In this document: one piece after another, positions 7,288-26,076 of the stretch
Numbering within the stretch: position 1 is the first letter of the stretch
Layout of the letters: every line of letters starts with the position of its first letter
From: an uncultured Solirubrobacteraceae bacterium
GTDB taxonomy: Bacteria; Actinomycetota; Thermoleophilia; Solirubrobacterales; Solirubrobacteraceae
Reading direction: 5' to 3'
DNA length: 52,957 nucleotides
Assembly: GCA_902806205.1 (NCBI GenBank)
Contig: CADCVR010000078.1
Span: 1 to 52,957 of the forward strand
Notes under the pieces: model-generated
Databases searched by the model: none
Told to the model about the DNA's origin: nothing
What the model saw: the letters and a program-made list of their open reading frames with translations, nothing else
Position numbers and translations under genes: made by a program

Positions 7288-7360
7288 GCCGTCGTAGCTC
7301 AGCTGGTAGAGCACTTCACTCGTAATGAAGGGGTCAGCGGTTCGAATCCGCTCGACGGCT
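7288..7360 (+). tRNA. tRNA-Thr (anticodon CGT)
   Basis: A 73-base cloverleaf folds by eye. The acceptor arm GCCGTCG pairs with CGACGGC. The D arm is in GTAGCTCAGCTGGTAGAGCAC. The anticodon stem CTTCA/TGAAG encloses the loop CTCGTAA with anticodon CGT, reading ACG (Thr). The T arm contains GGTTCGAATCC. The discriminator base is T7360 and no CCA is encoded. A strong hairpin follows immediately. The 3' flank then contains mobile-element and gene remnants, so this tRNA probably marks an integration-prone edge of the accessory region. Confidence 0.95.
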
Positions 7361-8525: not shown

Positions 8526-8857
8526 GCCATAGACGTAGCCGCCGTCGACGACCCAGGTCTGGCCTGTGACGAACCCCGCCTCGTCGGACACGAGGTAGGA
8601 CAGCGCTCCGGTCAGATCCTCGGGCTGGCGGTGCGCTTGATCGCCTGGACGCCGATCGATGTCTCGAAGAGGTTCATCTCGTCGTGAACGCCCTGACTGG
8701 TGCCATGGGTACGGATGAGGCCCGACGCGATGCCGTTGATGGTCACGCTCGGCGGTCCGATCTCCCGGGCCAGGCGACGGATGAAGCCGATGATCCCGCC
8801 CTTGCTCGCGACGTAGTGCAGCGCGCCCGGCGAGCCGGCGCGCCCTCCCGTGCTCGC
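8526..8857 (-). pseudogene. short-chain dehydrogenase/reductase remnant (C-terminal half, frameshifted)
   Basis: On the minus strand the sequence encodes AGSPGALHYVASKGGIIGF, which contains the YxxxK catalytic motif of SDR enzymes. It continues to NGIASGLIRTHGTSQGVHD and ends in the adjacent frame with SDEAGFVTGQTWVVDGGYVY, the standard SDR C-terminus. The change of frame is at about 8628, where one base is missing before the PEDLTGALSYL-like segment. The N-terminal Rossmann half with the glycine-rich cofactor motif is absent; the sequence upstream of 8860 loses all SDR resemblance. The piece is therefore both truncated and frameshifted and cannot encode an active enzyme. Confidence 0.8.
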
Positions 8858-8960
8858 CGCGCCGAGGCTACGGCCGACGGACCCTTCACCGCCACCTCTC
8901 AGAAGGGCATTCTCAATGAGTCGCAACTGTGTGCGGGGTCTCAGCGCCTGCCGGGCTGGC

Positions 8961-9159
8961 GACCAGGTGTCCCTGCTCGACACGCTGCAGGACCACGACG
9001 CCCGGATCCGCCGCGGCGATGGACCTGATCGACCTCAAGGACCGCATGGCCGACGCGATCGCCCGCCTGCCCGAGCGCGAGAAGCTCGTCATCGCCCTCT
9101 ACTACTACGAGAACCTCACCCTCCGCGAGATCGGCGAGGTCCTCGGCGTCACCGAGTAA
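8961..9159 (+). pseudogene. sigma-28-type (FliA/WhiG-like) sigma factor remnant
   Basis: The first part reads [14 protein letters not shown] in one frame. After about 9005 the sequence continues in another frame as [20 protein letters not shown], then [20 protein letters not shown] and GVTE, followed by TAA at 9157-9159. This is the region 3-4 junction and most of region 4.2 of a FliA/WhiG/SigF-like sigma factor. The frame shift lies between the two parts. The normal continuation after GVTE (the SRVSQLH recognition helix) is missing and the N-terminal regions 2 and 3 are absent. It is a decayed fragment rather than a functional factor. Confidence 0.75.
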
Positions 9160-9209: not shown

Positions 9210-10703
9210 TCAGGACAGCGTCGCCACCACCCTCGCGGCTTTGAGCAGGTCGGGAGCGGTGAACGATTCGGCCTGCCCGTAGGTGGGCCGCCAGTCCGGG
9301 TCCTGCCGTAGGTAGGACTGCCCGTCGCCCTGGATCAGCCCGACGATGACCTCGGCGACGATCCTGCCGCCCACCGGGCCGAGGCGCTCACCGTTGGCCA
9401 TGACCTGGGCCTCGCGCAGGACGTAGAACCACAGCGGCGTGCGATCGTCGAGATGCAGATCCTTCAGGTCTGCCAGGTGGGACTTCTCGAGCGCGGGCAG
9501 CTTCATCGCCTTGGCCACGCGCTGGCCCGACGGCACTTTCATGGTCAGGCTGCGGAGCAGGTTGCGGGTCGCCAGCGAGTTCGGCTCGCCCTGCGGCTGG
9601 CCCATCAGTGCGAAGAGGACCGACGAGATCCTGGTGTCGATCGTCTTGCTCTGGCGCTGTCTGCCGTCCGCGAAGTCGAAGAAGGTCTGCCAGTCGATGA
9701 ACCGGCGCGCAGCTCTCCTGCGGCCGCGCAGGTCGGCGGGGTCGTCCCCGTCAGCGGCTGCCGGGTCGAAGATGTGGGCGAAGAACTGCTGTGCCGCGTC
9801 CGTGGCGCTGGTGCCGAAGTTCGCCCGGTAGCTCGGTCGGACCTGGGAGTGACCGAAGCGGTAGGCCCCGACCGAGAACTCCACGGGTATGTACGGCTCG
9901 TTGCGCCACTTGAAGTGCTTGCGGCCGCGGGTCAGGACGTCGTTGACCGTGTCTGCCCCGACGGTCCTCGGCAGGAACTCGTGCACGATGAGCCACTGGT
10001 AGTGCCAGCGCACGACCCGTTGGGCCTCGGTGAAGAGCTCCCCGGCGGTGTAGCCGGGACCCAGATCCTCTTTGAGGTCACCGACCACCCGGTTGTGAAA
10101 GCGCAGCAGTGCCAGATGCAACTGGGAGACGATGAGGTTCTCGTCGTTGCGAGGGTCACCGATGAGGGCGACCTTCTGGCTGTTGCGCGGAAGGTCGTAG
10201 CGTGGCTCGTTGCCGATCGAGACCGCGGCCGAGCCCGGGATCTCCTCGGTCAGCAGCGTCGTCCGCCCGCCGTCGACGCTGGTGTCGTAGAGGTGGGGAG
10301 ACGCTCCCGGGCCGCTCCCGTAGACGCTGTCGAGGTCCAACGCCGGGATGCGGAAGTTGCGTATCGACTCCGGGTCCTGCCGGCGGGCCAGACTCGAGGT
10401 CGGATCGAACGTCATGTCGTGGTCGAGGAATTGACCCAGGAAGGTGAACCCGGCCGTGAGCGCCGGATTGTCGGGATTGTTGACCCGCTTCGCCGGGTCG
10501 GTTATCAGCGTGATCGGATCGGAAGCCGGGTCGCCCGCGTCCATCAGACCTCCGGGCGCACCGAGCTCGGTGAGCGCGCCGCGGATCAGCGGGGTGTCGG
10601 CTGCGAACGGCGGCAGCGTCCCGAACAGGCGCCCGAAGCGGCCCTGATCGTAGAACACCGACTCGGGAGTGGACTCGCCGAGACTTGCATGACCGTGCGA
10701 CAT
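9210..10703 (-). CDS. animal-type haem peroxidase (peroxinectin/myeloperoxidase superfamily)
   Basis: The gene encodes 497 residues. The distal site FLGQFLDHDMTFD contains Gln91, Asp94, His95 and Asp96, matching Gln/Asp (haem ester)/distal His/Ca ligand of myeloperoxidase. The Ca-binding and substrate segment is ALDLDSVYGSG (121-131). The catalytic Arg185 and the second haem-ester Glu188 lie in GDPRNDENL. The proximal His285 is in VGAYRFGHSQVRP. All key residues are present, so an active peroxidase with covalently linked haem is expected. No signal peptide is seen. ATG 10703 has GGAAGG about 10 bases upstream. It is the last gene of the minus-strand oxidative cluster, 224 bases after the large regulator gene. 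A 13-bp element shared with the cyclooxygenase-like gene lies about 50 bases upstream. Confidence 0.95.
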   Translation of the reverse strand: MSHGHASLGESTPESVFYDQGRFGRLFGTLPPFAADTPLIRGALTELGAPGGLMDAGDPASDPITLITDPAKRVNNPDNPALTAGFTFLGQFLDHDMTFDPTSSLARRQDPESIRNFRIPALDLDSVYGSGPGASPHLYDTSVDGGRTTLLTEEIPGSAAVSIGNEPRYDLPRNSQKVALIGDPRNDENLIVSQLHLALLRFHNRVVGDLKEDLGPGYTAGELFTEAQRVVRWHYQWLIVHEFLPRTVGADTVNDVLTRGRKHFKWRNEPYIPVEFSVGAYRFGHSQVRPSYRANFGTSATDAAQQFFAHIFDPAAADGDDPADLRGRRRAARRFIDWQTFFDFADGRQRQSKTIDTRISSVLFALMGQPQGEPNSLATRNLLRSLTMKVPSGQRVAKAMKLPALEKSHLADLKDLHLDDRTPLWFYVLREAQVMANGERLGPVGGRIVAEVIVGLIQGDGQSYLRQDPDWRPTYGQAESFTAPDLLKAARVVATLS

Positions 10704-10751
10704 ACGCGCCTACCTTCCGGTGTCTTGATTGATCAGGAGTCTTGAGGACCA

Positions 10752-10764
10752 AGCTCTACCAGAG
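10752..10764 (-). promoter_or_regulatory. shared 13-bp element upstream of haem peroxidase (copy 1)
   Basis: On the minus strand this reads CTCTGGTAGAGCT, with a CTCT-N3-AGAG inverted repeat. An identical 13-mer lies at 15951-15963, just before the cyclooxygenase-like gene. TAGAGC inside it could serve as a -10 box, so the element may be a shared promoter, an operator, or both. Confidence 0.45.
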
Positions 10765-10791
10765 TCCGGAACACCTTTCCACCGGAGGGGG

Positions 10792-10965
10792 GTCGCCGAT
10801 CGCGACGAGGCCGACCCCGGTCACCGCTGTCGGCCGGTCCTACGCCGAGCTGATCCCCGGCGCGTCGCTCGCCGTCGAGGAGGAGGGCAAGAGCCCGCTG
10901 GCCTGGCAGGGCGGCCAGCTCTGCGGGTCATCGCCGAGCTCGCGGCGAGGGCATGGGCGACGTGA
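10792..10965 (+). pseudogene. alpha/beta-hydrolase C-terminal remnant, multiply frameshifted
   Basis: The plus strand encodes DRDEADPGH, then in another frame YAELIPGASLAVEEEGKSPL followed by AWQGGQL, then back in the first frame RVIAELAARA. Together these are the usual last strand-helix of alpha/beta-hydrolases, with the DPGH segment around the catalytic His region. At least two frame changes are needed and the core of the enzyme (nucleophile elbow) is missing. The 3' end overlaps the last 38 bases of the opposing regulator gene. Confidence 0.65.
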
Positions 10966-13900
10966 GCCCGGCCAGGCGCCCCTCGATCGCGGTCGTCAGC
11001 AAGGGCGCCCCGAACGTCCGGGTCCGCGCGAGCGCCGAGCGGAGGTGCCGGGCGGCCAGGCGGCGATCCCCCCAGGTCTCGGCGAGGCGGGCAAGGTAGG
11101 AGTCGACGGGTCCCCAAAACGCGGAGTAGGCGACGACGACGTTGCGGTGCGCGTGCGGGGCCAACGCCGTGTAGAGCGCCTCGGCGCGGGGGACGTCCTC
11201 CAGCTTTGCGCACAGCTCGCTCAGGAGGGCGAGCGTCGTCAGCCAGTACATGCCGCGCGGGACGGCCTCGGGCCCTCGCGCCAGCTCCCGGTCGTAGATC
11301 GCACGGGCCGCCGCCACGTCACCGGCTTCGAGTCGCAGCATCGCCAGTGCGCTCGGCCAGCCGGACTGGCGCCCGCCGCCGTGGGCCAGCTGCTCGACCA
11401 GCCGCAGCTGCTGCCTTATCGCGTCGTCGCGGTGGCGAACCGAGAACAGCTTGGCCGCCCACGTGCTGACCGCATCTTGCATGTGGGCGCGACGGCCATG
11501 GCGCAGCCCTTCGTCCGCGCACTGAGCCGCCAGCTCGACGTCGCCCGCGAGCTCGGCCCATATGCCCCTCCAGCCGGCGGCGACGCTCAACAGGAGAGGC
11601 TGGCGCAACTCGGCGGCGAGGCCTTCCAGCTTGGCCTGCTCGTGCTTGGCGGTTTCGAGCTCGCCCAGCTCGAACAGGTCGTAGAGGCGCCAGTGATGGT
11701 GCTCGGCGGTGAGCTCCCGGTGCTCGCCGGCCACCGACGCGAGCTCGTCCATGAGCGCGAGGCGCTCCGGAAGGTGCCGCACGTCGGTCAGCGTGACGTG
11801 TCGCGCCAGAAGCGCTCCGGTCAGGATGTTCGCGTCGCCGAGCTTCCGCGCCGTCTCGAGTGCCTCAGCGCTCGTCCTGATCGCCTGGTCGCTCTCGCTT
11901 GGGTAGCCGAGGTGCTCGGCCAGACGGGAGAGCAGCAGGGCTCGCAGCGCCGTCTCCTCGGCGGGAAGGGTGGCAACCGACTCTTCGAGCAGCTCTCGGT
12001 AGCGCGGCTCGACGTAGGCCACCTCGAACCAGCGCTCGCCGAGCCCCAGGGCCGCCCGGGCGAGTTGCCCGGCGTCGCCACGGCGCGACGCGCTCTCGGC
12101 GGCGGCCAGGAACGTGCGGCGGGCGGCGTCGCCACCGGCATGCCACTGCACGCGGCCCAGCGCGAGGAGCATGTCGCAGCGCTCGGACTCGTCCGCGTCG
12201 CCCAACAGCTCCAGCGCGAGGCGGAAGTGCTCTGCCGCCTCCTCGTAGGCCAGGAGCTCGGTCGCGCGCGCCCCCGCGGCTATCGCGTAGCGCCGCGCGG
12301 GACCGTCGCCGGCGACGTGCCGGGCGAGGAGGAAGTGGTGGGCGAGCTCGGCGGGATTGGTCGCCTGCGGGCCGGCCACCCGCTCGAGCGCCTCGGCGAC
12401 GCGGTGGTGTAGGCGGACGCGGCGGCTCCCGGTCAGCTGGCGGTACAGCACCTCGCGCACGACGGCATGGGAAAAGGTGAAGACGTCGACCGGGTGGGTC
12501 AGCTCACCGATCAGGCCGGCGTCGATGCCCTCGTCCAGCGCGGTCATGAGGTCCTCGGGATCCGCGTCGGACACGCGTGCGAGCACGTCGAGGGGAAAGC
12601 TGCGGCCGATGACCGAGGCCGCCACCAGCGCCTCCGCGCCGAGCGGCGACAGGCGACGCAGGCGTCGCGTGATGACTTCCGCGACCCCCTCGGGGACGCC
12701 TGCCCGCTCCAGCGAGCTCTCGGTCACCGCCTCGGGGGCGGGCGACTCCGCGTCGTCGAGCGCGCGAAGGGTCTCCTCGATGAAGAACGCGTTGCCTGCG
12801 GTCTGCTCGCACAGCCGGTGGACGAAGCCAGGCGTGACCGCCCTGCCGAGCCGGTCGGTCACGAGGGCCTGCGTCTCGGCCTCTTCGAGCCCGCCGAGCT
12901 TGAGGCGCTCGAAGCGCCGGTCGCGACGGATGTCGGCCAGCACGTCGCGCAGGACGTGCCCCGGGCCCGCCTCCACGTCCCGGAAGGTGCCGAGAACCAG
13001 GACGTTCCCGAGCTCGGGCTCCCGGAGCAGGTGACGCAGGAGCAGCAGCGAGGGTTTGTCGGCCCAGTGCAGATCGTCGAGGACGAGGAGCACCGGCCAC
13101 TCGCGGCCGGCCCGCTTGAACACGTCGACGACCGCTTCGAAGAGGCGGTAGCGCAACGTCTCGTGGTCGCTGGGACCGGGCGCGCCCGGCGCGCCCAGAT
13201 CCGGGATGAGCCGGCTGAGGATCTCCCGCTGCCCCACCGTGAGCGGTTGGGCTCCCCGGACGAGCAACGGGCGCAGCGCCTCGACGAACGGCTGATGGGG
13301 AAGCAGGGCGTCCTCGTCGGCACGACCGTAGAGCGTCGCCCCGCCGCTGCGGTGGACCTCCTCGGCGAAATGGGTGGCCAGGCGCGTCTTGCCGACCCCA
13401 GGCTCGCCGACGAGCAGGACCAGCTCCGTCCGCCCCGCGCAGACCGCGCCCCACAGCTCTCTCAGGCGGGCCAGGCACCCCTCGCGGCCGACGAAGGCGC
13501 CGTCGCCGAGCGCGTGGGTCGCCGGCGCCGGGGCACCGGCCGGGTCCTCGCCGGTGACCGCGCCGGGCCACGGTGCCGGCGGCCCTGAGGCGTCGTCGTG
13601 CAGCAGCCGCTCATGCAGCGCGACGTGCTCGGGTGACGGAATCGTGCCGAGCTCGTCGCGTAGGAGCGTGCGCAGCCGATCGAAGGTGCGCACCGCCTCG
13701 GCGGCGTCCCCGCGCCGGCTCTGCGCCTGCATGAGCAGCGCGTAGGCGCTCTCACGGAACGGCTGGCGCTCGATGACCGCCCGGGCCATCCGCTCGGCGG
13801 CAGGCAGGTGGTCGCCGCCGAGCATCAGAGCGGCTTGAGCCGAGGCTTCGAGGGCCCGGGGCTCCAGCTCGCAGAGCTCCCTGCGCCAATCTTCGACCCA

Positions 13901-14350
13901 CGCTCCGTGGAGGCCTGGGAGCAGCGGCTGCGCCAGCACCCGCAGCGCGGCCTGCGCCGCACCGAGCGCCGTCGAAGCGTCCTTGGCCGCAAGCGCACGC
14001 TCGGCCTCCTGCGTCTGCTCGACGACGCGCTCGACGTCGACGTCAGAGCCGTCGGGGAGCTGCAGCGTCAAGGCTGCTCGGCCCGTGATCAGCTCGGGCC
14101 CGACGGTCCGGCGGACCTTCGCCAGAACGCTACTCAGCGCGGCGTCGGGGTCCGCCGGGGGGCGCTCGGACCACAGCACGTCGAGGACCTCGTCGCGATC
14201 GACGGCCCGGTGACGGTTGAGGACCAGGTAGGCGAGCAACGTGCGGCCCTGGCGCCCGGGGAGCTCGGCGACGACCGAGCGCCCGTCGCGTCGGACCTGC
14301 AGCTCTCCGAACAGCGCGATCCCCAGCGGTACGGCGAGGCCTTGCGTCAC
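10928..14350 (-). CDS. large SARP/BTAD-AAA transcriptional activator (LAL-like)
   Basis: The gene encodes 1140 residues. The order is an OmpR-type winged helix (about 10-100, FGELQVRRDGRSV...VLWSERPPAD), a bacterial transcriptional activation domain (about 105-250), and an AAA/NACHT-like ATPase. The ATPase has Walker A GEPGVGKT at 315-322 and a Walker B motif LLVLDDLHWAD about 100 residues later. A long helical TPR-like C-terminus (about 650-1130) follows. Such proteins are ATP-dependent activators of secondary-metabolite or stress genes. No C-terminal LuxR HTH is present; DNA binding is through the N-terminal domain. GTG 14350 starts four bases after the stop of the cyclooxygenase-like gene, so the two are translationally coupled and the regulator probably controls this cluster. 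The C-terminus overlaps a hydrolase remnant on the other strand. Confidence 0.93.
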   Translation of the reverse strand: MTQGLAVPLGIALFGELQVRRDGRSVVAELPGRQGRTLLAYLVLNRHRAVDRDEVLDVLWSERPPADPDAALSSVLAKVRRTVGPELITGRAALTLQLPDGSDVDVERVVEQTQEAERALAAKDASTALGAAQAALRVLAQPLLPGLHGAWVEDWRRELCELEPRALEASAQAALMLGGDHLPAAERMARAVIERQPFRESAYALLMQAQSRRGDAAEAVRTFDRLRTLLRDELGTIPSPEHVALHERLLHDDASGPPAPWPGAVTGEDPAGAPAPATHALGDGAFVGREGCLARLRELWGAVCAGRTELVLLVGEPGVGKTRLATHFAEEVHRSGGATLYGRADEDALLPHQPFVEALRPLLVRGAQPLTVGQREILSRLIPDLGAPGAPGPSDHETLRYRLFEAVVDVFKRAGREWPVLLVLDDLHWADKPSLLLLRHLLREPELGNVLVLGTFRDVEAGPGHVLRDVLADIRRDRRFERLKLGGLEEAETQALVTDRLGRAVTPGFVHRLCEQTAGNAFFIEETLRALDDAESPAPEAVTESSLERAGVPEGVAEVITRRLRRLSPLGAEALVAASVIGRSFPLDVLARVSDADPEDLMTALDEGIDAGLIGELTHPVDVFTFSHAVVREVLYRQLTGSRRVRLHHRVAEALERVAGPQATNPAELAHHFLLARHVAGDGPARRYAIAAGARATELLAYEEAAEHFRLALELLGDADESERCDMLLALGRVQWHAGGDAARRTFLAAAESASRRGDAGQLARAALGLGERWFEVAYVEPRYRELLEESVATLPAEETALRALLLSRLAEHLGYPSESDQAIRTSAEALETARKLGDANILTGALLARHVTLTDVRHLPERLALMDELASVAGEHRELTAEHHHWRLYDLFELGELETAKHEQAKLEGLAAELRQPLLLSVAAGWRGIWAELAGDVELAAQCADEGLRHGRRAHMQDAVSTWAAKLFSVRHRDDAIRQQLRLVEQLAHGGGRQSGWPSALAMLRLEAGDVAAARAIYDRELARGPEAVPRGMYWLTTLALLSELCAKLEDVPRAEALYTALAPHAHRNVVVAYSAFWGPVDSYLARLAETWGDRRLAARHLRSALARTRTFGAPLLTTAIEGRLAGLTSPMPSPRARR

Positions 14351-14354
14351 CGCG

Positions 14355-15944
14355 TCACCGTGCCTGTCCGCCGGCCCTCGTCATCGTGATCGCGTAGGGA
14401 CGGTCCCTTCGCGTGACGTTGCGGTTGACGACGTCGGACAGGTTGCTCGTCGTGTGGATCTCCTGCCAGCCCAGCGGCGAGAGCGTCTCCTCGTCGTACA
14501 CGCGCGGGGCGAGCAGCGGATTGGTCAGCGCCTGGGAGAACGCGTCCACCCCGACCATCCGCCCGATCAGCGGCGGCAGGACCGAGTTCGGGCGCGGGTC
14601 CTCGGCGAAGAGCCCGACGTAGAACTCGATCGCCTGCGGGCCGTCGTAGCACTCGGCCAGGCCGGCGCGGATGCGTGGGTCGCTCGAGATCTGGTCGAAG
14701 CCGGTCACCCGCGGGTAACGGCAGGCCTCGCGGTAGTCGTTGTAGGAGGCAAGCCGCACGGCGCGGCCCTTCTCGACGCTGGCCCTCTCGGCCGGAAGCA
14801 GCTCGGGAGCGGTGTTGAACAGCCCCACCCGGCCCGCGCGCTGGCTCGACGCCTCTTCGAGCAGGGGGCCGAGCCCGTGTTCGGGTACGAAGCCCGGATC
14901 GAGCGCCGTCTCCTGCAGCGGTCGCATCCGCCCCCCCGCCAGCAGCTCGGACGGGATGAGGCTGTGCCACCGGTAGAGGAGGTTGAACTCGCTGGCCATG
15001 CGGTTCGTGCGCATCCACGGTGCGCGCCGGAAGGCCTTCGCCCCTTCGAGGGTGAAGCGGAAGTGGTACGGCGTGATGTGGTTGATGTACTCGTCGACGA
15101 CGAGCTTGAGCAGGATCACGATGTTGATCATGCGGGCGGTCTGGAAGAGGCGCTCGTCGTCCCAGCCGTAGGCCGCCTCGAGCCGGGTCGCCAGCCGGTT
15201 GTGCTCGCGGAGGAACAGCGTGTTCATCAGCACGTGGCCGATCTGGATGTTCCCCGTGTCGGTCCCGATCGCGAAGAGCTGCTCGCGGGCCCGGGGATCG
15301 AACATCTCCTCGCGCGCGACGGTGATCGAGGGAAAGCGCTTCGTGCCGTCGGCGGCGTAGAGGCGCGGGGGGAAGGTCTCCGGCCCGTCGCCCTCGGACG
15401 CCAGCAGACCGCCCTCGTACGTGCGCAGCTCGCGTGTCGCCTCCTGCGTCAATCCGTAGATCTGGCACAGGTCGATCTCGTGCGTCGAGTCGTTGCGCCT
15501 GGGATCGGGAGGTGCACCCGGCAGCTTCGGGCGGTCGCTGCGCAGAAAGCCGTCGGTGAACCACTGCGCGAAGTACGCGAACAGGACCGTCGACTTCTGG
15601 CAGAGGTCTTCCTCGGCGCGCGCCGGTGACGGCCGCCGGAACAGCTCGACGAGGCGGTCGACCGGGGGCAGGCCGCCCTCGCGGTGGAGCGGCCGGAGGT
15701 GCCGGCCGTCGTAGCGGCGATCGGTGAGCGACTCCCACGACGTGTAGTCGCTGCGCGTGCTGAACGGATCTGGTCGCGGGTCCATCTTCGCCGCCGCCCG
15801 CGAGATCAGCGTGCGGTTGACCAGGCGGCTCAGCCACCCCACGGAGTGAACGCCGTCCCAGACCCGGGCTCCCCGGGTGAGCAGCGCGAACTCGAGTTTG
15901 TTGCCAAGGCCGTCGCGCTTCTTGCTCCGCTGGTGTCGGCTCAC
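14355..15944 (-). CDS. cyclooxygenase (prostaglandin H synthase)-like haem protein
   Basis: The gene encodes 529 residues. The alignment by eye to animal PGHS runs almost end to end. Equivalents (ovine PGHS-1 numbers) are Arg49 (Arg120), Gln127 (Gln203), Tyr293 (Tyr355, in PYHFRF), Tyr324 (Tyr385) and His327 (proximal His388) in FNLLYRWHSLIP, and Ser470 (Ser530, in DAFSQALTNP). LFLREHNRLA and DERLFQTARMI are also shared. The distal His207 is replaced: FAQWFTDGFL has Asp131 where PGHS has FAQHFTHQFF. The enzyme therefore keeps the fatty-acid carboxylate and tyrosyl-radical residues but has lost the normal peroxidase acid-base. No EGF domain, signal peptide or membrane segment is seen. GTG 15944 is the best start; no ATG lies before the conserved region. 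Fatty-acid oxygenation is inferred. The gene is coupled to the downstream regulator. Confidence 0.9.
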   Translation of the reverse strand: MSRHQRSKKRDGLGNKLEFALLTRGARVWDGVHSVGWLSRLVNRTLISRAAAKMDPRPDPFSTRSDYTSWESLTDRRYDGRHLRPLHREGGLPPVDRLVELFRRPSPARAEEDLCQKSTVLFAYFAQWFTDGFLRSDRPKLPGAPPDPRRNDSTHEIDLCQIYGLTQEATRELRTYEGGLLASEGDGPETFPPRLYAADGTKRFPSITVAREEMFDPRAREQLFAIGTDTGNIQIGHVLMNTLFLREHNRLATRLEAAYGWDDERLFQTARMINIVILLKLVVDEYINHITPYHFRFTLEGAKAFRRAPWMRTNRMASEFNLLYRWHSLIPSELLAGGRMRPLQETALDPGFVPEHGLGPLLEEASSQRAGRVGLFNTAPELLPAERASVEKGRAVRLASYNDYREACRYPRVTGFDQISSDPRIRAGLAECYDGPQAIEFYVGLFAEDPRPNSVLPPLIGRMVGVDAFSQALTNPLLAPRVYDEETLSPLGWQEIHTTSNLSDVVNRNVTRRDRPYAITMTRAGGQAR

Positions 15945-15950
15945 GCCGCT

Positions 15951-15963
15951 AGCTCTACCAGAG
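15951..15963 (-). promoter_or_regulatory. shared 13-bp element upstream of cyclooxygenase-like gene (copy 2)
   Basis: This is the same minus-strand CTCTGGTAGAGCT as at 10752-10764, here ending 6 bases before GTG 15944. TAGAGC within it is 7 bases from the start codon, so it may be the -10 box of a leaderless transcript lying inside an operator-like inverted repeat. The adjoining bases 15964-16020 are unusually AT-rich for this window. Confidence 0.5.
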
Positions 15964-16115
15964 CCCTCAAGAAATACCAAAGCTCTTCTTTTGATGAAGG
16001 GCTCCCCGCAAAACGCCAAGAAGCTCGCAGGGTTACGCCAACGGCACAACAGGGCCCCACCGGCAGGTTGCTCCGCACCGTCCACCCACCGTGCGCAGCA
16101 CAGATCGGAGTGTCC

Positions 16116-16706
16116 ATGCCCACCATCGCCAAGTCCCGAATGCGCCGCGGCGCCGGAGAGGTGAGCGGGCTCGTCGAGCGCGCAGCCGCCCGCGACGACA
16201 CGGCGTGGCAGGAGCTCGTCGACGAGTTCGGCGGCCTGGTGTGGTCGATCACGCGGTCGCACAGGCTGGCCGACCAGGACGCCGCGGACGTCTCCCAGAC
16301 GACGTGGCTGCGGCTCGTCGAGCACGTCGAGCGCTTGCAGGAGTCCCACCACGTGGGCGCGTGGCTGGCGACGACAGCGCGGCGCGAGAGCCTCCTGACG
16401 ACGCGGCGCTCGGCCCGCCTGGTCCCGGCGGGCGACGACTTGCCCGAGCTCGCAGACGACGCCCCGGCCCACGATGCGCGACTGCTCGAGCAGGAGCGCG
16501 ACGACGCGCTGTGGGCGGCGTTCGACCGCCTGGACGAACGTGACCGCACCCTCCTGCGCCTGGTCGTGACCGAGCCATCGCCGAGTTATGAGAAGGTCGG
16601 TGCGGCGCTCGACATGCCCGTCGGGAGCATCGGCCCCACGCGTGGCCGCGCGCTCGCGCGCCTGCGCGACCAGATCGAGGACGCCGAGCTCCTCCAGGCC
16701 GTCTGA
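16116..16706 (+). CDS. ECF-family RNA polymerase sigma factor
   Basis: The gene encodes 196 residues. Region 2 is visible as FGGLVWSITRSHRLADQDAA followed by DVSQTTWLRLVEHVERL, with the -10 recognition helix. Region 4 is FDRLDERDRTLLRLVV followed by SYEKVGAALDMPVGSIGPTR and LARLRDQI. No extra C-terminal SnoaL-like domain or adjacent anti-sigma gene is seen. ATG 16116 is used; GTG 16110 two codons upstream is an alternative. The gene is divergent from the cyclooxygenase-like gene (171 bases between starts) and convergent with the vanadium haloperoxidase gene. Being inside the cluster, it is a candidate regulator of the peroxidases, but no promoter consensus could be matched. Confidence 0.93.
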   Translation: MPTIAKSRMRRGAGEVSGLVERAAARDDTAWQELVDEFGGLVWSITRSHRLADQDAADVSQTTWLRLVEHVERLQESHHVGAWLATTARRESLLTTRRSARLVPAGDDLPELADDAPAHDARLLEQERDDALWAAFDRLDERDRTLLRLVVTEPSPSYEKVGAALDMPVGSIGPTRGRALARLRDQIEDAELLQAV

Positions 16707-16729
16707 GCGCTCCCGCAGGAGCCGGCGCG

Positions 16730-16758
16730 GCCGGTGGCGTCCCCCCGACGCCACCGGC
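16730..16758. terminator. bidirectional hairpin between convergent genes
   Basis: GCCGGTGGCGTC (16730-16741) pairs perfectly over 12 bp with GACGCCACCGGC (16747-16758) around a CCCCC loop. It sits between the stops of the ECF sigma gene and the haloperoxidase gene, so it can serve both strands. Confidence 0.8.
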
Positions 16759-16773
16759 TTAACCGCCCCCCGG

Positions 16774-18015
16774 CTAGATCGGGCGCAGCACGTTGTCGGC
16801 GACGTACTCGCCGAGCGCGTTGCCCGAGTGGAACCCGTGATCGCCGTCCCACTGGAAGTGCACGCCCAGGTACACCCGGCTGCGGGCGTTCTCGCGCGCG
16901 GCCTCGGTGAAGCTGTTGAACGTCCGCTCCACCCCCGCGGGCAGGTTCGGGTCCTCGGTCGTGGCGGTGAACGTGACGTTGTCCGTGTCGAAGTACCGGC
17001 GCATGATCGCCGCATGCACGGCCCCGAACGTCGCGTGCCCGGAGACGTAGGCCGGGAACGGCGGCGAGAAGTGCTTGTTGTTCGCCGGGTTCTTCAGCAG
17101 TGGCTTCCAGTTCGCCTGGGCGGTCGTCGCCGGGTTGCCGTCGGTCGCCGCGAGCTTGATCGCCGTCTCCGGGCGCCAGAGGTCGAGGTGGGTGTCGTAC
17201 TTGGCGTCCCAGGCGACCACCGAGGCGTCCGCCATGCCCAGCGCGACGAGCGCGAACAGGCGGGCGTTCTCGACGAGGTCCAGGCCCTTCTGGTCGGACA
17301 CGACCTTGGTGATCTCGAACAGCTGTCCGGGCGGCTTGTACGTCCCGTCGAGGTCGTTGGCCCAGAACAGCGCGATCTCGGTCTCCTCGGAGGTCCGGGT
17401 CGCCGAGTTGCTGCGCCCGAGCTCCTTGACCTCGTCGAACTGCGCCGTGTACTCGGGGCTCGTGAGCATCTCGGCCTTGGAGACGTAGCCGCCGGGCTGC
17501 GGCGGACGGAACGACTGGCCGTAGGGCGAGCAGAACGGCTTGAGGTTCCCCCAGTTCGGGCCGGCCGCCGGGCCGGTGCCGGTCGGTCTCCAGTCGCCCG
17601 CACTGGTGCCCGGGACGTAGGGGGCGTTGTCGTCGGCACCGTCGCCGCGGCGCTTGGCGATCATCGCCGCGGCGGTCGCCGTGCCGACGGCCTCGCCACC
17701 CGCGACATCGGCGCCGGGGTCGAGCGCGGCGATCGCGGCCGACAGGCGGGTGGCGAGCGGCACGGTCGTGCTCGGGAACGCTGCCGCGAGGGTGTCGTGA
17801 GCCGCATGGGCCACCGCGGCCTCGATCGACGCCGTGGGTGCGGCGGGGACCGAGGCGAGGTAGGGACGGTGCGTCGACGGCGCGATCGAGCTGACCGCGT
17901 CGTACATCGAGGCGTGCATCATCGCGCCGCCACGGGCGATGGGGCCGGGAGGGCCGCCGACCTGGCGGACGACCTCGAGGAGCACGTCGTTCCAGTGGGT
18001 GATGGCATCGGGCAT
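16774..18015 (-). CDS. vanadium-dependent haloperoxidase (PAP2-type)
   Basis: The gene encodes 413 residues. The vanadate site is visible: Lys272 and Arg281 in KYDTHLDLWRPETAI, Ser325-Gly326-His327 in PAYVSGHATFG, and Arg380 and His386 in SRVYLGVHFQWDGDHG. The six-residue Arg-His spacing is the same as in fungal vanadium chloroperoxidase. Enzymes of this group use hydrogen peroxide to oxidise halides to hypohalous acid, or act as related phosphatases. No signal peptide is evident (MPDAITHWNDVLLEVV). ATG 18015 has a strong AGGAGAAG ribosome site. The gene is convergent with the ECF sigma gene. Together with the two haem peroxidases it makes a third peroxide-using enzyme within 9 kb. Confidence 0.95.
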   Translation of the reverse strand: MPDAITHWNDVLLEVVRQVGGPPGPIARGGAMMHASMYDAVSSIAPSTHRPYLASVPAAPTASIEAAVAHAAHDTLAAAFPSTTVPLATRLSAAIAALDPGADVAGGEAVGTATAAAMIAKRRGDGADDNAPYVPGTSAGDWRPTGTGPAAGPNWGNLKPFCSPYGQSFRPPQPGGYVSKAEMLTSPEYTAQFDEVKELGRSNSATRTSEETEIALFWANDLDGTYKPPGQLFEITKVVSDQKGLDLVENARLFALVALGMADASVVAWDAKYDTHLDLWRPETAIKLAATDGNPATTAQANWKPLLKNPANNKHFSPPFPAYVSGHATFGAVHAAIMRRYFDTDNVTFTATTEDPNLPAGVERTFNSFTEAARENARSRVYLGVHFQWDGDHGFHSGNALGEYVADNVLRPI

Positions 18016-18144
18016 GAGCTGCTTCTCCTATGGGTCAGAGGGGCCGCGGGATGCGACCGTCGGAGAAGTGGAGCCGCGGGGCGCGCTTCAGATACGTCCG
18101 AAGCGAGATTCCGGGGAAAAAGTCCGTCTTGCGGGCCCCATCCC

Positions 18145-18168
18145 TCGCTCGCCGAGGTCGGCGAGCGA
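18145..18168. promoter_or_regulatory. 24-bp palindrome upstream of haloperoxidase
   Basis: TCGCTCGCCGA (18145-18155) and TCGGCGAGCGA (18158-18168) are perfect 11-bp inverted repeats separated by GG, 130 bases upstream of the haloperoxidase start. No T tract follows on either side, so an operator is as likely as a terminator for the small minus-strand frame upstream. Confidence 0.45.
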
Positions 18169-18201
18169 CGCGTCACCCGCACGTTGCACGCGCGCCGCAC
18201 G

Positions 18202-18336
18202 TCATTCGTGCGGCTCGCGGCCGACCAACGGCACCCGGCGCATCCAATGCCCTCGCTGCCAGGCGTTGAAGCCAGACCCGGTCCCTACGGGGTCGGGGTG
18301 ATACGCAAACTCGGGGAGGGGCTCGGACTCGCTCAT
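18202..18336 (-). CDS. 44-residue frame resembling the N-terminus of CbrC/UPF0167 proteins
   Basis: From ATG 18336 the frame reads MSESEPLPEFAYHPDPVGTG and then GFNAWQRGHWMRRVPLVGRE before a stop. The LPxFxYHPDPxxTGS segment is the usual beginning of CbrC/UPF0167 proteins, but the Cys-rich remainder (about 150 residues) is missing. It is probably a truncated remnant. It lies between two copies of a 30-bp direct repeat, the downstream copy forming its last codons. Low certainty. Confidence 0.35.
   Translation of the reverse strand: MSESEPLPEFAYHPDPVGTGSGFNAWQRGHWMRRVPLVGREPHE
18208..18237. repeat. 30-bp direct repeat, copy A
   Basis: This begins GTGCGGCTCGCGGCCGACCA and continues ACGGCACCCG. 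It matches copy B at 18360-18390 except for one substitution (A/G) and one extra G. The two copies are 122 bases apart and flank the CbrC-like mini-frame. Confidence 0.7.
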
Positions 18337-18359
18337 GGCGACCAGCGTCGCATCGGCAC

Positions 18360-18390
18360 GTGCGGCTCGCGGCCGGCCAACGGGCACCCG
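18360..18390. repeat. 30-bp direct repeat, copy B
   Basis: This begins GTGCGGCTCGCGGCCGGCCA and continues ACGGGCACCCG. It is the same orientation as copy A at 18208-18237 and lies just upstream of the CbrC-like start on the minus strand. A small tandem duplication is the simplest explanation. Confidence 0.7.
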
Positions 18391-18511
18391 AGTCACGCGA
18401 AATAAGTTCTCCTCGGGGGCGGTATCAGGGCGGCGGCCGGCCGCTCTTGTGGTTCGAGCGCTGCGGAACGACACGCCGCGCGACCCACCACCACGACGCA
18501 CAAGGAACTCC

Positions 18512-19129
18512 ATGCCCCAGCTCCAGTCCCCACGATCGATCATCAGCCACGAGCACCTGCACCTGACCTCCGGCCTCATCGCAGGCGTCAACCAGACGTT
18601 CCCCGCGCGCCTGCCGGGGCGTGCCGCTCCCGCCGACCGGCTCAAGGAGGGCCTCGACCGGCTCGACGCCTCCCTTCATCGCTGGCTCGTCGCCCACAGC
18701 ATCATGCTGCTGCGGGTGAGCCTCGGCCTCGTCTTCCTCGGGTTCGGGGCGCTCAAGCTGTTCCCCGGCGTCAGCCCCGCCGAGGATCTCGTCAAGGAGA
18801 CGACCAGCCTCCTGACCCTCGGCCTCATTCCCGGTCCGGTTGCGCTGGCAGGCGTGGCCGTCCTGGAGTGCAGCATCGGCCTGTGCCTGCTCACGGGGCG
18901 GGCGATGCGCGTCGCGATCTCCCTGCTGGCCGTGCAGATGGTGGGCATCCTCTCGCCCCTGGTGCTGCTCGCCCCCCGCCTGTTCGCCGGACCGGAGAAC
19001 GCGCCGACGCTCGAAGGTCAGTACGTGCTCAAGGACATCATCCTGGTCGCGGCCACGCTGGTCCTCGCGGCGACGCTCCGCGGCGGAAGGCTCGCGAGCG
19101 AGCCGGAGCCCTCGTCCCCGGGGCGGTAG
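18512..19129 (+). CDS. DoxX-like membrane protein
   Basis: The gene encodes 205 residues with four hydrophobic segments: about 68-85 (IMLLRVSLGLVFLGFGAL), 105-128, 133-155 and 178-196. The motif RVSLGLVFLGFGALKLFPG is characteristic of DoxX/YkgB-type four-helix proteins, membrane proteins of poorly known function often linked to redox stress. ATG 18512 has an AAGGA ribosome site 5 bases upstream. The first 60 residues are hydrophilic (SHEHLHLTSG...RLKEGLDRLDASLHRW). It lies at the right end of the oxidative cluster and is divergent from the haloperoxidase gene (about 500 bases between starts). A link with the peroxidases is suggested only by position. Confidence 0.8.
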   Translation: MPQLQSPRSIISHEHLHLTSGLIAGVNQTFPARLPGRAAPADRLKEGLDRLDASLHRWLVAHSIMLLRVSLGLVFLGFGALKLFPGVSPAEDLVKETTSLLTLGLIPGPVALAGVAVLECSIGLCLLTGRAMRVAISLLAVQMVGILSPLVLLAPRLFAGPENAPTLEGQYVLKDIILVAATLVLAATLRGGRLASEPEPSSPGR

Positions 19130-19678: not shown

Positions 19679-20203
19679 TCCGGCGGCGGCAACGACGCCT
19701 TCGGCGGGACGATCGTGAAACGGGTGCGCTTCGCCGTCGAGGTCGCCGAGGCATGCGCGGACGCGATCGGGGCCGAGCGCGTGGCGATCCGCCTGTCGCC
19801 CGGCACCGACATCTGGGACGTCGTCGAGAACGACGTGCCCGAGCTCTACAGCGCTCTGTTCGCGCAGCTCGAGCGCCTCGGCCTCGCCTACGTGCACACG
19901 CTCGCCACCCACGGCGACCAGCTGTTCGACCAGTTGCGGCACGCGTGGAGCGGGACATTCATCGTCAATCCCTCGCCCGGCGTCGCCGGAGACCAGGCCG
20001 ACCGCGCCGCCGGCGAGCACTGGCTCGGGCGCGGTGCCGACCTCGTCGCCTTCGGGCGCGCGTACCTCGCCAACCCCGACCTCGTCGAGCGCTTCCGGCT
20101 CGGCGCGCCCGTCCGCCACGCCCAGCCCGACACGTACTACGGAGGCGGCGACGCCGGCTACATCGACTATCTCGGCCACCGGCATGTCAACCATTACGAC
20201 TGA
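19679..20203 (+). pseudogene. old yellow enzyme (NADH:flavin oxidoreductase) C-terminal half
   Basis: The frame runs from about 19679 (GGNDAFGGTIVKRVRF, matching the YGGSxENRxRF segment of OYE family enzymes). It continues through VAIRLSPGTDIWD, LAYVHTLATHGDQL, GTFIVNPSPGV and HWLGRGADLVAFGRAYLANP, which is the FMN-phosphate site and final strand, and ends at TYYGGGDAGYIDY. This is a normal C-terminus. The N-terminal 190 or so residues with the catalytic His pair and first FMN contacts are absent upstream. GTG 19715 could be used as a start, but the product would lack half the barrel, so it is best treated as a truncated gene. Confidence 0.82.
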
Positions 20204-20259
20204 CCGCCGAACAAGAACCGCAAACGAAGCACCTGCACTACACGAGGCACGATCGTGAC
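20204..20259. other. short spacer between OYE and IS1595 remnants
   Basis: Nothing recognisable. The frame of the OYE remnant ends at 20203 and the transposase-like sequence begins near 20260. Confidence 0.3.
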
Positions 20260-20447: not shown

Positions 20448-21647
20448 TCAGGCGACGAGCGCCGCTTCGACCGGGGAGCGGCCGCGGGCTCGGGGCGTGA
20501 GCCGGACGTCTCCGAGGAATCGTTGCAGCCGGTCGGCCTCTGCCTCGATGGCCGCGACGCCTTCGGCACCGACATCCTCGACAAGCTCGTGGACGACCTC
20601 GCCGGTCGGGCGCTGGGCCCAGCCGCCGACGACCCGGCCGCTCCACCAGACCGTGGGCGAGGCGTTGCCCGTGCGGTCGAAGAGCCGCGGGCCGTGGTCG
20701 GCGAGGTAGAACTCGCGGCCCTTCCAGCCCATCGTCGTCGGGTCGAGCGCCGGGAGCAGGGCGGCCCAGGGCGCGGGCGGCGGCGTCGGCTCCAGGTCGT
20801 CGTCGGGGAGGGCGACGCCGGGCACGCCCGCGCAGTCGACCTCGACCGCGCCGGCGGCGGCGAGAGCGGTACGGGTCGTGCCGACGCCCCAGCCCGTCCA
20901 CCAGCGCAGGTCCTCTGCCGGCGCCGGGCCGAACGCCCGCAGCCAACCCCTCGCGAGTTCCGTGCGGGCGTCCGCGGTGGTGAGGGCCGGCACGGCCGCC
21001 GGCGACCAGGCGTCCATCACCGCCCAGCGGAACTGCGTCGAGGCCCAGGTGCCCTTCGGGCGGACCCGCACGGCCCGGCCGTCGGCGCCGAGGATCGTGA
21101 GGATGCGGCTGCCGAGCTTCTGCCGCGCGGCGTACTTCGTGTCGCGGCCCGGCACCAGGATCGTGCGCAGCCGGGCGTCCCTCGCGCAGAGGTCGGTCGC
21201 GCTGAGCTGTCCGCCCGCTCGAAGTGCGTCGACGGCGGCGTGCTCGACCTCCGTGAGCCACGCGCCGACGTCCTCGGGGAGCTCACCGTCCTCGGGCTCG
21301 GCATGGGCGAGCATCTGCAGGAGCTTTCGCCGCTCACGCGCGGCGACGTCGCGGCCGCAGGCAGCGAGGATGGTCGCCGCGGTGTCGGGCGGCGCGGCGA
21401 AGACGGTGCGCCGCATGCCCATGACCCGGACAAGGGTGCGGTCGCCGTAGAGGGCGCGCTCGACCTCCTCGACGCCCCCGGCGCGCATCCGCGACCAGGC
21501 GGACAGGAAGACGGACGCGGGGTCCGTGCTGTGCAGGGCGACGACTGCGGCGGCGGCCGCGACGGGGTCCTCCGCGCGCTCGGCGTGGGCGAGGCGGTGG
21601 CGCACTCCGAGCCGGGCGCGCCGCTCCGCGTCAGTGAAGCGCCGCAC
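20448..21647 (-). CDS. winged-helix DNA-binding protein, AlkZ-like DNA glycosylase family
   Basis: The gene encodes 399 residues of the HTH_42/AlkZ-like family: RHRLAHAERAEDPVAAAAAV, VALHSTDPASVFLSAWSRM, RTLVRVMGMRRTVFAAP, and near the C-terminus TMGWKGREFYLADHGPRLFD and NASPTVWWSGRVVGGWAQR. AlkZ removes interstrand crosslinks made by azinomycin; many paralogues have unknown substrates. The canonical catalytic QxQ motif of AlkZ was not located by eye, so activity is uncertain. GTG 21647 has a GGAGG ribosome site about 10 bases upstream, lying inside the remnant regulator frame that overlaps by 17 bases. The gene looks intact and may be the first complete gene to the right of the cluster debris. 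Confidence 0.85.
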   Translation of the reverse strand: MRRFTDAERRARLGVRHRLAHAERAEDPVAAAAAVVALHSTDPASVFLSAWSRMRAGGVEEVERALYGDRTLVRVMGMRRTVFAAPPDTAATILAACGRDVAARERRKLLQMLAHAEPEDGELPEDVGAWLTEVEHAAVDALRAGGQLSATDLCARDARLRTILVPGRDTKYAARQKLGSRILTILGADGRAVRVRPKGTWASTQFRWAVMDAWSPAAVPALTTADARTELARGWLRAFGPAPAEDLRWWTGWGVGTTRTALAAAGAVEVDCAGVPGVALPDDDLEPTPPPAPWAALLPALDPTTMGWKGREFYLADHGPRLFDRTGNASPTVWWSGRVVGGWAQRPTGEVVHELVEDVGAEGVAAIEAEADRLQRFLGDVRLTPRARGRSPVEAALVA

Positions 21648-24251: not shown

Positions 24252-25394
24252 ATGTCAACCTCGTCGTCCACGGCCCACCTCGACCAGGACGCGCGGGAGG
24301 CGCTCGCAGCCGAGCTCGACGCGCTCCACGCGGAGGTTCGCGCCGACCTCGGCGCGCGCGACGCGGCGTACATCCGCGGGGTGATCAAGGCGCAGCGCCA
24401 GCTCGAGGCCGCGGGCCGCGCGCTCCTGCTCGGCTCGCGCTGGAAGCCGGCGCTGGCGGGGGGCACCGTCGCGCTCACGCTCTCGAAGGTCATCGAGAAC
24501 ATGGAGCTCGGGCACAACATCATGCACGGGCAGTGGGACTGGATGCGCGACCCTGCGGTCCACTCGACGACGTGGGAGTGGGACGCCGCGTCGACCGCGC
24601 GCTCGTGGAAGCACTCGCACAACTTCCAGCACCACACCTACACGAACGTCGTCGGCAAGGACCGCGACCTCGGCTATTCGGCGATGCGCGTCGACGCCGA
24701 CCAGCCGTGGCGCCCGGTCTACCTCGCACAGCCGGTCTACGGCATGCTGATGGCGCTGACGTTCGAGTGGGGGATCGCGCTCTACGACATGGAGCTCGAC
24801 GCGGTGAAGCGCGGGGAGAAGAGCAAGGCGCAGGCGCGCCAGGAGTTGCGGGCCTTCGCCGAGAAGGCGCTCACGCAGCTCGGCAAGGACTACGCCTTGT
24901 TCCCCGCGCTGGCCGGACGCAAGGGCTTCGCACGGGCACTCGCCGCGAACGTCGTCGCGAACCTCGCGCGCAACCTGTGGGTCCACACGGTCGTGTTCAT
25001 GGGTCACATCCCGGAGCCGGCCGAGACGTTCACCGAGGACCAGTACGAGAACGAGACGCGCGGCGACTGGTACGTCCGCCAGGTCACGGGCTCCTGCAAC
25101 CTCGACGGCTCGCCCCTCTTCCACCTGATGACGGGCAACCTCTCCTTCCAGATCGAGCATCACCTCTTCCCGGACGTTCCCAGCAGCCGCTACTCAGACG
25201 TCGCCCCGCGCGTGCGCGAGATCTGCGGGCGCTACGGCCTGCCGTACCACTCGGGCCGGCTCGGTCGCCAGTACCGCTCCGTCGCGAAGAAGATCTTGCG
25301 GCTCTCGTTCCCCGGGGGCGGGCCGAGGGCGGTCGCGCCGGCGGCCTTCACCCCCGCCCGGGCACCCGAGGTGCCGGCGCTCGCGCTCGTCTGA
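24252..25394 (+). CDS. acyl-lipid/acyl-CoA fatty acid desaturase
   Basis: The gene encodes 380 residues of the membrane di-iron desaturase family. Three histidine boxes are present: HNIMH at residues 88-92 (ELGHNIMHGQW), HSHNFQHH at 121-128, and QIEHH near residue 300 (SFQIEHHLFPDVPSSRY). The QIEHH box with Gln at its first position is typical of front-end and acyl-lipid desaturases. Hydrophobic segments lie around 66-84, 160-185 and 230-255. The enzyme introduces a double bond into fatty acyl chains in the membrane, probably using ferredoxin or a flavoprotein partner that is not encoded here. It ends convergently with the TetR gene. It is 8 kb from the cyclooxygenase-like gene, so a shared lipid pathway is only a possibility. 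Confidence 0.93.
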   Translation: MSTSSSTAHLDQDAREALAAELDALHAEVRADLGARDAAYIRGVIKAQRQLEAAGRALLLGSRWKPALAGGTVALTLSKVIENMELGHNIMHGQWDWMRDPAVHSTTWEWDAASTARSWKHSHNFQHHTYTNVVGKDRDLGYSAMRVDADQPWRPVYLAQPVYGMLMALTFEWGIALYDMELDAVKRGEKSKAQARQELRAFAEKALTQLGKDYALFPALAGRKGFARALAANVVANLARNLWVHTVVFMGHIPEPAETFTEDQYENETRGDWYVRQVTGSCNLDGSPLFHLMTGNLSFQIEHHLFPDVPSSRYSDVAPRVREICGRYGLPYHSGRLGRQYRSVAKKILRLSFPGGGPRAVAPAAFTPARAPEVPALALV

Positions 25395-25443: not shown

Positions 25444-26076
25444 TCAGGCCAGGCCGTCGAGCAGCCGCCCGACGACGGCCAGCAGGCGCTCACGAGCGAC
25501 AGAACGTCCTCCGCCGCAGAGGTGCGAGTAGAGGTCGGCGCGAAAGGGCGCGAGCAGGACGTGGGCGAGGACGTCGATGTCCAGGTCCCCGTCGAGCTCG
25601 CGCAGCAGGATGCGCACGTGGGTGTGGTAGGCGCCGTAGGGGCCGCCGCCGAAGCGGGCGCTGACGAGCGCGGTGCGGTCCGCCTCGAGGATGAGCTCCC
25701 CGTGGCGGTCCATGAGGCGACTGAGGGCGCTGAAGAAGGCGAGCAGCCGGTCCCGCGGCGCGGCGCCCGGACCGAGGGGGGCGGGGCCGCGGAGGAAGCC
25801 CTCCTGCAACGCGATCGACTCGGCCTCCAGGAGCGCCAGGGCGAGCCCGCTGCGATCGCCGAAGCGGCGGTAGAGGGTGCCCTTGCCGACCTGGGCTGTC
25901 GCGGCGATCTCGTCCATCGAGACGTTCGTGACCCCGCGTTCGGCGAAGAGGCGCTTGGCGGTGCAGAGGATCCGCTCGCGGTTGCGGGCGGCGTCGGAGC
26001 GCTCCGGCCGGCCGGCGGGCTGCAGGACGGGCAGCTCGATTGGAGAGGGGAGCTCGGACACGGCGACGGCGGCCAT
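25444..26076 (-). CDS. TetR-family transcriptional regulator
   Basis: The gene encodes 210 residues. The N-terminal HTH reads RERILCTAKRLFAERGVTNV and SMDEIAATAQVGKGTLYRRF, a canonical TetR DNA-binding domain at about 30-80. The C-terminal ligand domain contains RDRLLAFFSALSRLMDRHGE and matches the SBP-like TetR C-terminal group common in actinobacteria. It is the third gene of a minus-strand run YceI / FMN reductase / TetR (34-base gap), so it probably autoregulates the operon through the two CGGAC-N4-GTCCG operators upstream of the first gene. The inducer is unknown. ATG 26076 precedes a 25-residue non-conserved arm; a later start is possible. Confidence 0.93.
   Translation of the reverse strand: MAAVAVSELPSPIELPVLQPAGRPERSDAARNRERILCTAKRLFAERGVTNVSMDEIAATAQVGKGTLYRRFGDRSGLALALLEAESIALQEGFLRGPAPLGPGAAPRDRLLAFFSALSRLMDRHGELILEADRTALVSARFGGGPYGAYHTHVRILLRELDGDLDIDVLAHVLLAPFRADLYSHLCGGGRSVARERLLAVVGRLLDGLA

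Follow-up and report, generated by a model that had tools for sequence, protein, structure and literature searches.

Enzymes of the cyclooxygenase type are the source of lipid hormones in animals and of signals in fungi. A bacterial member, the linoleate 10S-dioxygenase (10S-DOX) of Nostoc punctiforme, is reportedly UniProt entry B2J5P4, described by Brash et al. in 2014. The motifs published for it are FtdsF, YIxxITPY, FxxxY and RxIGxDAFxQA, it accepts both linoleate and oleate, and the bacterial case cited as characterised is cyanobacterial (PMC13049297); according to a survey of 2015, cyclooxygenases of bacteria were at that time known only as putative sequences (PMC4420034). Among regulators, the AfsR literature describes a SARP that activates RNA polymerase and is controlled by its NOD/TPR part (PMC10936776). 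In this work we describe a six-gene cluster from an uncultured soil bacterium of the Solirubrobacteraceae (Thermoleophilia, Actinomycetota), lying in a 52,957-nucleotide stretch of DNA (the window) that is the entire contig C78 (CADCVR010000078.1) of the 3.38 Mb assembly GCA_902806205.1. In it a cyclooxygenase-like haem dioxygenase (DOX) stands between an ECF sigma factor and a large SARP/AAA regulator. The cluster is a composite, in which oxidative partners that can be exchanged accompany a conserved ECF-DOX-SARP core, and probably serves an oxylipin-type pathway.

The six genes, recognised from open frames and family matches, occupy positions 9210-19129 in the order AnPox (an animal-type haem peroxidase), SARP/AAA, DOX, ECF, VHPO (a vanadium-dependent haloperoxidase) and DoxX (Table 1). 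A preliminary description of this DNA had named two haem peroxidase-family proteins, a haloperoxidase, a SARP/AAA regulator and an ECF sigma factor, all of which are open frames with family matches (through solved structures in the case of VHPO), and had correctly placed the SARP/AAA start, a GTG, four bases after the cyclooxygenase-like stop (14350 and 14355, respectively). It had counted three unrelated kinds of oxidative enzyme, a count that has to be reduced since AnPox and DOX belong to one superfamily, and it had left DoxX unnamed. The genome has no An_peroxidase genes besides these two.

Identity and active site of the dioxygenase

DOX matches human and mouse COX-2 (COX, cyclooxygenase) over nearly the full length, scoring 192 bits alone and 343 bits with the family profile. 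Its AlphaFold model has a predicted local distance difference test (pLDDT) score of 84.7 and a predicted template modelling (pTM) score of 0.90; an earlier model from 8 sequences (pLDDT 52.7) was set aside. Superposition on a COX-2 chain gave a Z of 42.8 and a root-mean-square deviation of 2.2 over 484 residues at 26% identity, with model residues 13-524 on COX residues 84-583, and the VIA-align 2 listing for the model contained COX-superfamily chains only. Within this structural alignment, the N-terminal helices of DOX are the counterpart of the COX membrane domain. The catalytic tyrosine (Tyr324, COX Tyr385) and the proximal haem ligand (His327, COX His388) are invariant in 73 sequences, while the position of the COX distal His207 is taken by Asp131 and is Asp in all 73 family members, which rules out a prostaglandin H synthase. 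Because this distal Asp and the other published motifs match, DOX is grouped with 10S-DOX and not with the prostaglandin synthases: its FTDGF, YINHITPY, FNLLY and RMVGVDAFSQA segments fit the 10S-DOX motifs with Val for Ile at one position, the comparison being with the published motifs and not with the Nostoc sequence. Judged by these residues, DOX is best filed under the bacterial 10S-DOX type as a predicted fatty-acid dioxygenase, and since the characterised 10S-DOX also oxidises oleate, a polyunsaturated fatty acid need not be present. A first alignment had also hinted that the aspirin-target Ser530 is conserved in DOX; the published 10S-DOX alignment has Ala there, and this suggestion was withdrawn.

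The gene company kept by relatives of DOX points in the same direction. A scan of about 85,000 genomes returned 72 loci with such relatives, mostly from Streptosporangiales. A cytochrome P450 gene abuts the DOX relative in 61 of these, a fatty-acid desaturase lies near it in 58, and a lipase-like gene with a GHSAGG motif follows in 56 (the Lipase_3 match is weak, E 0.23). The P450s keep the haem Cys and the ExxR motif, and their I-helix is without the acid-alcohol pair. A P450 of this kind fits an enzyme consuming hydroperoxide rather than O2, as expected if it were fed by the hydroperoxide. Taken together, the P450, lipase-like and desaturase genes beside DOX relatives support fatty acids as the likely substrate, and the Streptosporangiales pair of DOX and P450 resembles the fungal DOX-CYP proteins in a bacterial, unfused form. 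An example is L021:6955-13986, where DOX occurs with a desaturase, an abutting P450 lacking the acid-alcohol pair, and the GHSAGG lipase-like gene. The window also carries a fatty-acid desaturase gene (24252-25394, forward strand, 108 bits), about 8 kb from DOX and beside a TetR regulator (25444-26076, reverse strand); it was considered as the equivalent of the Streptosporangiales partner and rejected, there being no significant similarity between the two.

The conserved core and its regulator clade

ECF, DOX and SARP genes were found together in two other genera of the family. In genome G034 (locus L017) their identities to the window proteins are 67%, 67% and 65-66%, respectively, and in G070 (L077/L122) 58%, 49% and 48-49%. 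The DOX and SARP genes of L017 overlap by ATGA, which suggests that the two are translationally coupled. Neither DOX nor a close SARP orthologue was found in any of seven genomes of the same genus; given this absence the module is patchy, and probably mobile.

The association extends beyond DOX through the regulator, whose N-terminal region scores 20 bits against the winged-helix DNA-binding model Trans_reg_C, below the cut-off of 26.2. When 41 SARP homologues were placed in a tree, the window SARP fell in a group of eight with a support of 88 in the Shimodaira-Hasegawa-like approximate likelihood ratio test (SH-aLRT), including a starred subgroup of five. Seven of the eight have a DOX or a DyP peroxidase gene within 1.3 kb, the eighth lying at a contig end beside an ECF gene, compared with four of the remaining 33 that have a neighbour of this sort (three An_peroxidase, one VHPO-like). 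The corresponding Fisher p-values, 1e-4 and 5e-4 with near-identical rows merged, are descriptive, as the neighbour labels were set after the data had been seen. The DyP neighbours are genuine, with a Pfam match, the GxxDG motif and the proximal His, and since DyP genes of the SARP-linked type number about one per carrying genome (32 of the 146 genomes that make up our family set), the four SARP-linked cases are not chance. The haem enzymes beside which this SARP clade is maintained, DOX and DyP, come from two superfamilies that are unrelated.

The DyP version of the cluster can be seen at L126:11333-15868 (G163), where a clade SARP, a small protein, DyP, a P450 without the acid-alcohol pair and ECF stand in a row. 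A protein of about 200 residues with a FESNYNGSF-like motif adjoins SARP-linked DyP genes at L123:14125-14757, L124:1349-1939 and L125:14660-15250, the L123 copy being without a Pfam match. A more distant SARP homologue at L158:5822-11246 (G161) lies by a methyltransferase-like gene and a VHPO-like gene (31% identity to the window VHPO). The ECF factor was also considered as a specific marker of the system and rejected, since its more distant homologues accompany TPR-type genes of another kind; in L182, L183 and L187 the genes after the related ECF encode a small conserved protein (about 150 residues) and a long protein of the TPR type, which makes up another regulatory set.

The exchange of DyP for DOX beside related SARPs would also be in keeping with a small specialised-metabolite cluster, in which the SARP would turn on enzymes that oxidise and halogenate, as tailoring steps, a non-lipid compound encoded at another place in the genome. 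Haloperoxidases are tailoring enzymes of natural products, and SARPs are the classical activators of antibiotic clusters (PMC10936776), but the cluster shows no core gene for biosynthesis, the genes that accompany DOX relatives are of lipase-like and desaturase type, and we consider this explanation improbable.

Exchangeable peroxidases and a shared upstream site

Whereas DOX has Asp in place of the distal His, AnPox has both its distal Asp94-His95 (GQFLDHD at 90) and its proximal His285 (YRFGH at 281), and its best PDB matches are lactoperoxidase and myeloperoxidase. In L017, a Tle1-type phospholipase domain is found at the position where the window has AnPox. An AnPox homologue of about 70% identity is likely a pseudogene, with TGA and split frames, in two genomes (G161:C66:64665-65824 and G160:C399:88957-90116).

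AnPox and DOX share a candidate regulatory site, the 13-base word CTCTGGTAGAGCT, which has exactly two copies in the 3.38 Mb genome, one upstream of each gene on its coding strand. A word this long common to both upstream regions was reached in 1 of 2000 shuffles, and in L017, too, the core of the word, CTGGTAGAGCT, directly precedes the DOX start. The idea that the shared site contains an 11-base direct repeat of AfsR type was dropped, as the spacing to an upstream GG-rich word, judged by eye, differs between the two sites.

VHPO scores 78.5 and 74 bits against solved vanadium haloperoxidases, with the Pfam PAP2 score (26.5) just below the cut-off of 27.2, and all vanadate-ligand positions are present (Lys272, Arg281, Ser325-Gly326-His327, Arg380 and His386). 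Its closest orthologues, 79% identical in G070 and 71% in G072, are not next to DOX. At L197:7096-9248 (G072) the VHPO gene (71%) is divergent from a DoxX gene (62%), as in the window; this pairing apart from DOX identifies VHPO-DoxX as a second, separate module. In L017, where a DoxX homologue (62%) lies downstream, the haloperoxidase gene flanking ECF is of another subfamily, near the algal bromoperoxidases (375 bits) and present in only 1 of the 146 family genomes. At least two separate events, involving different subfamilies, brought a haloperoxidase to the core. Two independent pairings point to a functional link, although the number of cases is small.

The active-site residues of AnPox, which resemble those of myeloperoxidase and lactoperoxidase, and the complete vanadate-ligand set of VHPO would suit a system for peroxide defence or for antimicrobial action by hypohalous acid, with the dioxygenase in a secondary role. 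It is DOX, rather than the peroxidases, that is the conserved partner of the regulators, and none of the six proteins matches a PADLOC model; we regard such a system as very improbable, and an anti-phage defence system was rejected on the PADLOC result.

At the left edge of the cluster lies a truncated short-chain dehydrogenase gene (8612-8983, reverse strand) with a tRNA-Thr (7288-7360) beyond it, hinting at an insertion-prone place, and at the right edge only the C-terminal part of an Old Yellow Enzyme-type flavin oxidoreductase gene (19715-20203, forward strand; profile positions 200-337 of 342), likely a gene remnant. An integrative element at the tRNA-Thr was rejected, as tRNA stretches of at least 12 bases are not repeated elsewhere in the window, and so were a transposase remnant near 20250 (no Pfam match) and a phage origin (no PHROGs match). 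Further genes of the window include an AlkZ-like DNA glycosylase (20448-21647, reverse strand) and an RTX calcium-binding repeat protein (47619-49382, reverse strand).

Table 1. Genes and candidate DNA sites of the cluster, with positions in the window.
Feature	Position	Strand	Basis or remark
AnPox, animal-type haem peroxidase, 497 aa	9210..10703	-	PF03098 91 bits (cut-off 25)
CTCTGGTAGAGCT, candidate regulatory site	10752..10764	-	48 bases before AnPox ATG
Large SARP/AAA (AfsR-like) regulator, 1140 aa	10928..14350	-	BTAD 75 bits, AAA_16 112 bits
DOX, COX-like haem fatty-acid dioxygenase (predicted), bacterial 10S-DOX type, 529 aa	14355..15944	-	An_peroxidase 145 bits; GTG start at 15944
CTCTGGTAGAGCT, second copy	15951..15963	-	directly upstream of DOX GTG
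GGCGTAACCCTG, word common to the DOX-ECF intergenic regions of the window and L017 (GGCGTAAACCTG)	16028..16039	-	
ECF sigma factor, 196 aa, divergent from DOX	16116..16706	+	TIGR02937 68.6 bits
VHPO, vanadium-dependent haloperoxidase, 413 aa	16774..18015	-	PDB 4cit and 1idu matches, ligand motifs
DoxX-family membrane protein, divergent from VHPO	18335..19129	+	PF07681 31 bits

A proposed oxylipin-type pathway and its nearest relatives

For the substrate, the co-regulation by SARP and ECF, the downstream chemistry and the biological role of the cluster we propose the following scheme. SARP would sense a signal via its AAA/C-terminal part and, together with ECF, switch on DOX and, via the shared upstream site, AnPox. 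DOX, placed on the membrane through its N-terminal helices, would form a hydroperoxide by adding O2, through a radical at Tyr324, to an unsaturated fatty acid such as oleate or linoleate. Given the distal Asp, the peroxidase activity of DOX itself is probably weak, which may be why peroxidases accompany it. AnPox, with its intact distal and proximal His, and VHPO could then reduce or halogenate the DOX product or, alternatively, use H2O2 to make hypohalous acid in parallel. That the locus is a regulated oxylipin-type cluster, with separately encoded peroxidases joined to the ECF-DOX-SARP core, strikes us as slightly better than an even bet.

Several observations weigh against this assignment. 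Homologues of AnPox are widespread (29 of the 146 genomes), with no other case seen in which one lies next to DOX or SARP; the 79% VHPO of G070 is on a different contig from the core; the cluster contains no P450, lipase or hydroperoxide lyase; and the three genomes bearing the core are all of one family, those of G034 and G070 being metagenome-assembled. In addition, the 11-base core of the shared site has three further genome copies outside the cluster and a reversed control is commoner, so that position and not count is the evidence. It may be that ECF-DOX-SARP alone is the functional unit and that AnPox, VHPO and DoxX are bystanders inserted at a recombination-prone place, as the separate VHPO-DoxX pair of G072, the unlinked VHPO of G070, the unlinked AnPox genes and the gene fragments flanking the cluster would all allow. 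The recurrence of a second, unrelated VHPO subfamily with DoxX at the same module in L017, and the 13-base site common to AnPox and DOX, argue the other way, and we regard a bystander origin as unlikely without being far-fetched. The preliminary description took as its refutation that no other genome keeps the genes together, and it is not refuted on this count: ECF-DOX-SARP stand together in G034 and G070, and L017 has a haloperoxidase and DoxX as well. Its reading is borne out in part; the five named genes are not one conserved unit, as AnPox is linked only here and the window-type VHPO lies off the core contig in G070. Its oxylipin-like lipid oxidation fits the 10S-DOX-type active site of DOX and the lipase-like, desaturase and P450 partners of DOX relatives, as far as predicted functions go, while its defence role, in the anti-phage sense, found no counterpart among the PADLOC models.

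More broadly, the cluster could belong to a bacterial system that uses oxylipins or halo-oxylipins as signals or weapons and in which the ECF and SARP/AAA switch is conserved while the haem enzyme (DOX or DyP) and the haloperoxidase are exchanged between lineages, a proposal that we put forward tentatively and consider rather doubtful. Our literature search, limited to one open library, found no description of a switchable hormone-like bacterial lipid-oxidation system of this kind, nor of the unfused Streptosporangiales DOX-P450 gene set. A DOX with a SARP/ECF switch of its own, together with the Streptosporangiales set of desaturase, P450, DOX and lipase-like genes, would mean that regulated oxylipin pathways operate in actinobacteria, and bacterial oxylipin signalling becomes directly testable in culturable strains, Solirubrobacter soli, Nonomuraea and Streptosporangium among them.

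Among known systems, the Nostoc 10S-DOX shares with DOX the COX fold, the catalytic Tyr and proximal His, the distal FTD(S/G)F motif, the central and terminal substrate-site motifs, the N-terminal membrane-domain helices and a similar length (542 aa against 529 aa), but its partner is a catalase-related hydroperoxide lyase, whereas the neighbours here are SARP, ECF, a haem peroxidase and a haloperoxidase. Animal prostaglandin H synthases (PGHS-1/2) are alike in fold and in Tyr385 and His388, and differ at the distal His207 and at Ser530 (Ala in the published 10S-DOX alignment). Fungal DOX-CYP fusions (Ppo / linoleate diol synthases) have the same superfamily chemistry, and the P450 abutting DOX in Streptosporangiales recalls them; the bacterial genes are separate, the window cluster has no P450, and the fungal DOX retain the distal His. 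In comparison with the vanadium haloperoxidases 4cit and Curvularia CPO (1idu), VHPO has every vanadate-ligand position, but its Lys and first Arg are two residues further apart and the sequence similarity is only distant; the closest known comparison for the L017 haloperoxidase gene is instead the algal bromoperoxidase. Finally, the regulator has the architecture of the Streptomyces AfsR-type large SARPs, with a SARP/BTAD region first, then an AAA (NOD) domain and finally a long C-terminal part, but here represents a distinct Solirubrobacteraceae clade associated with genes for haem enzymes and an ECF sigma factor.

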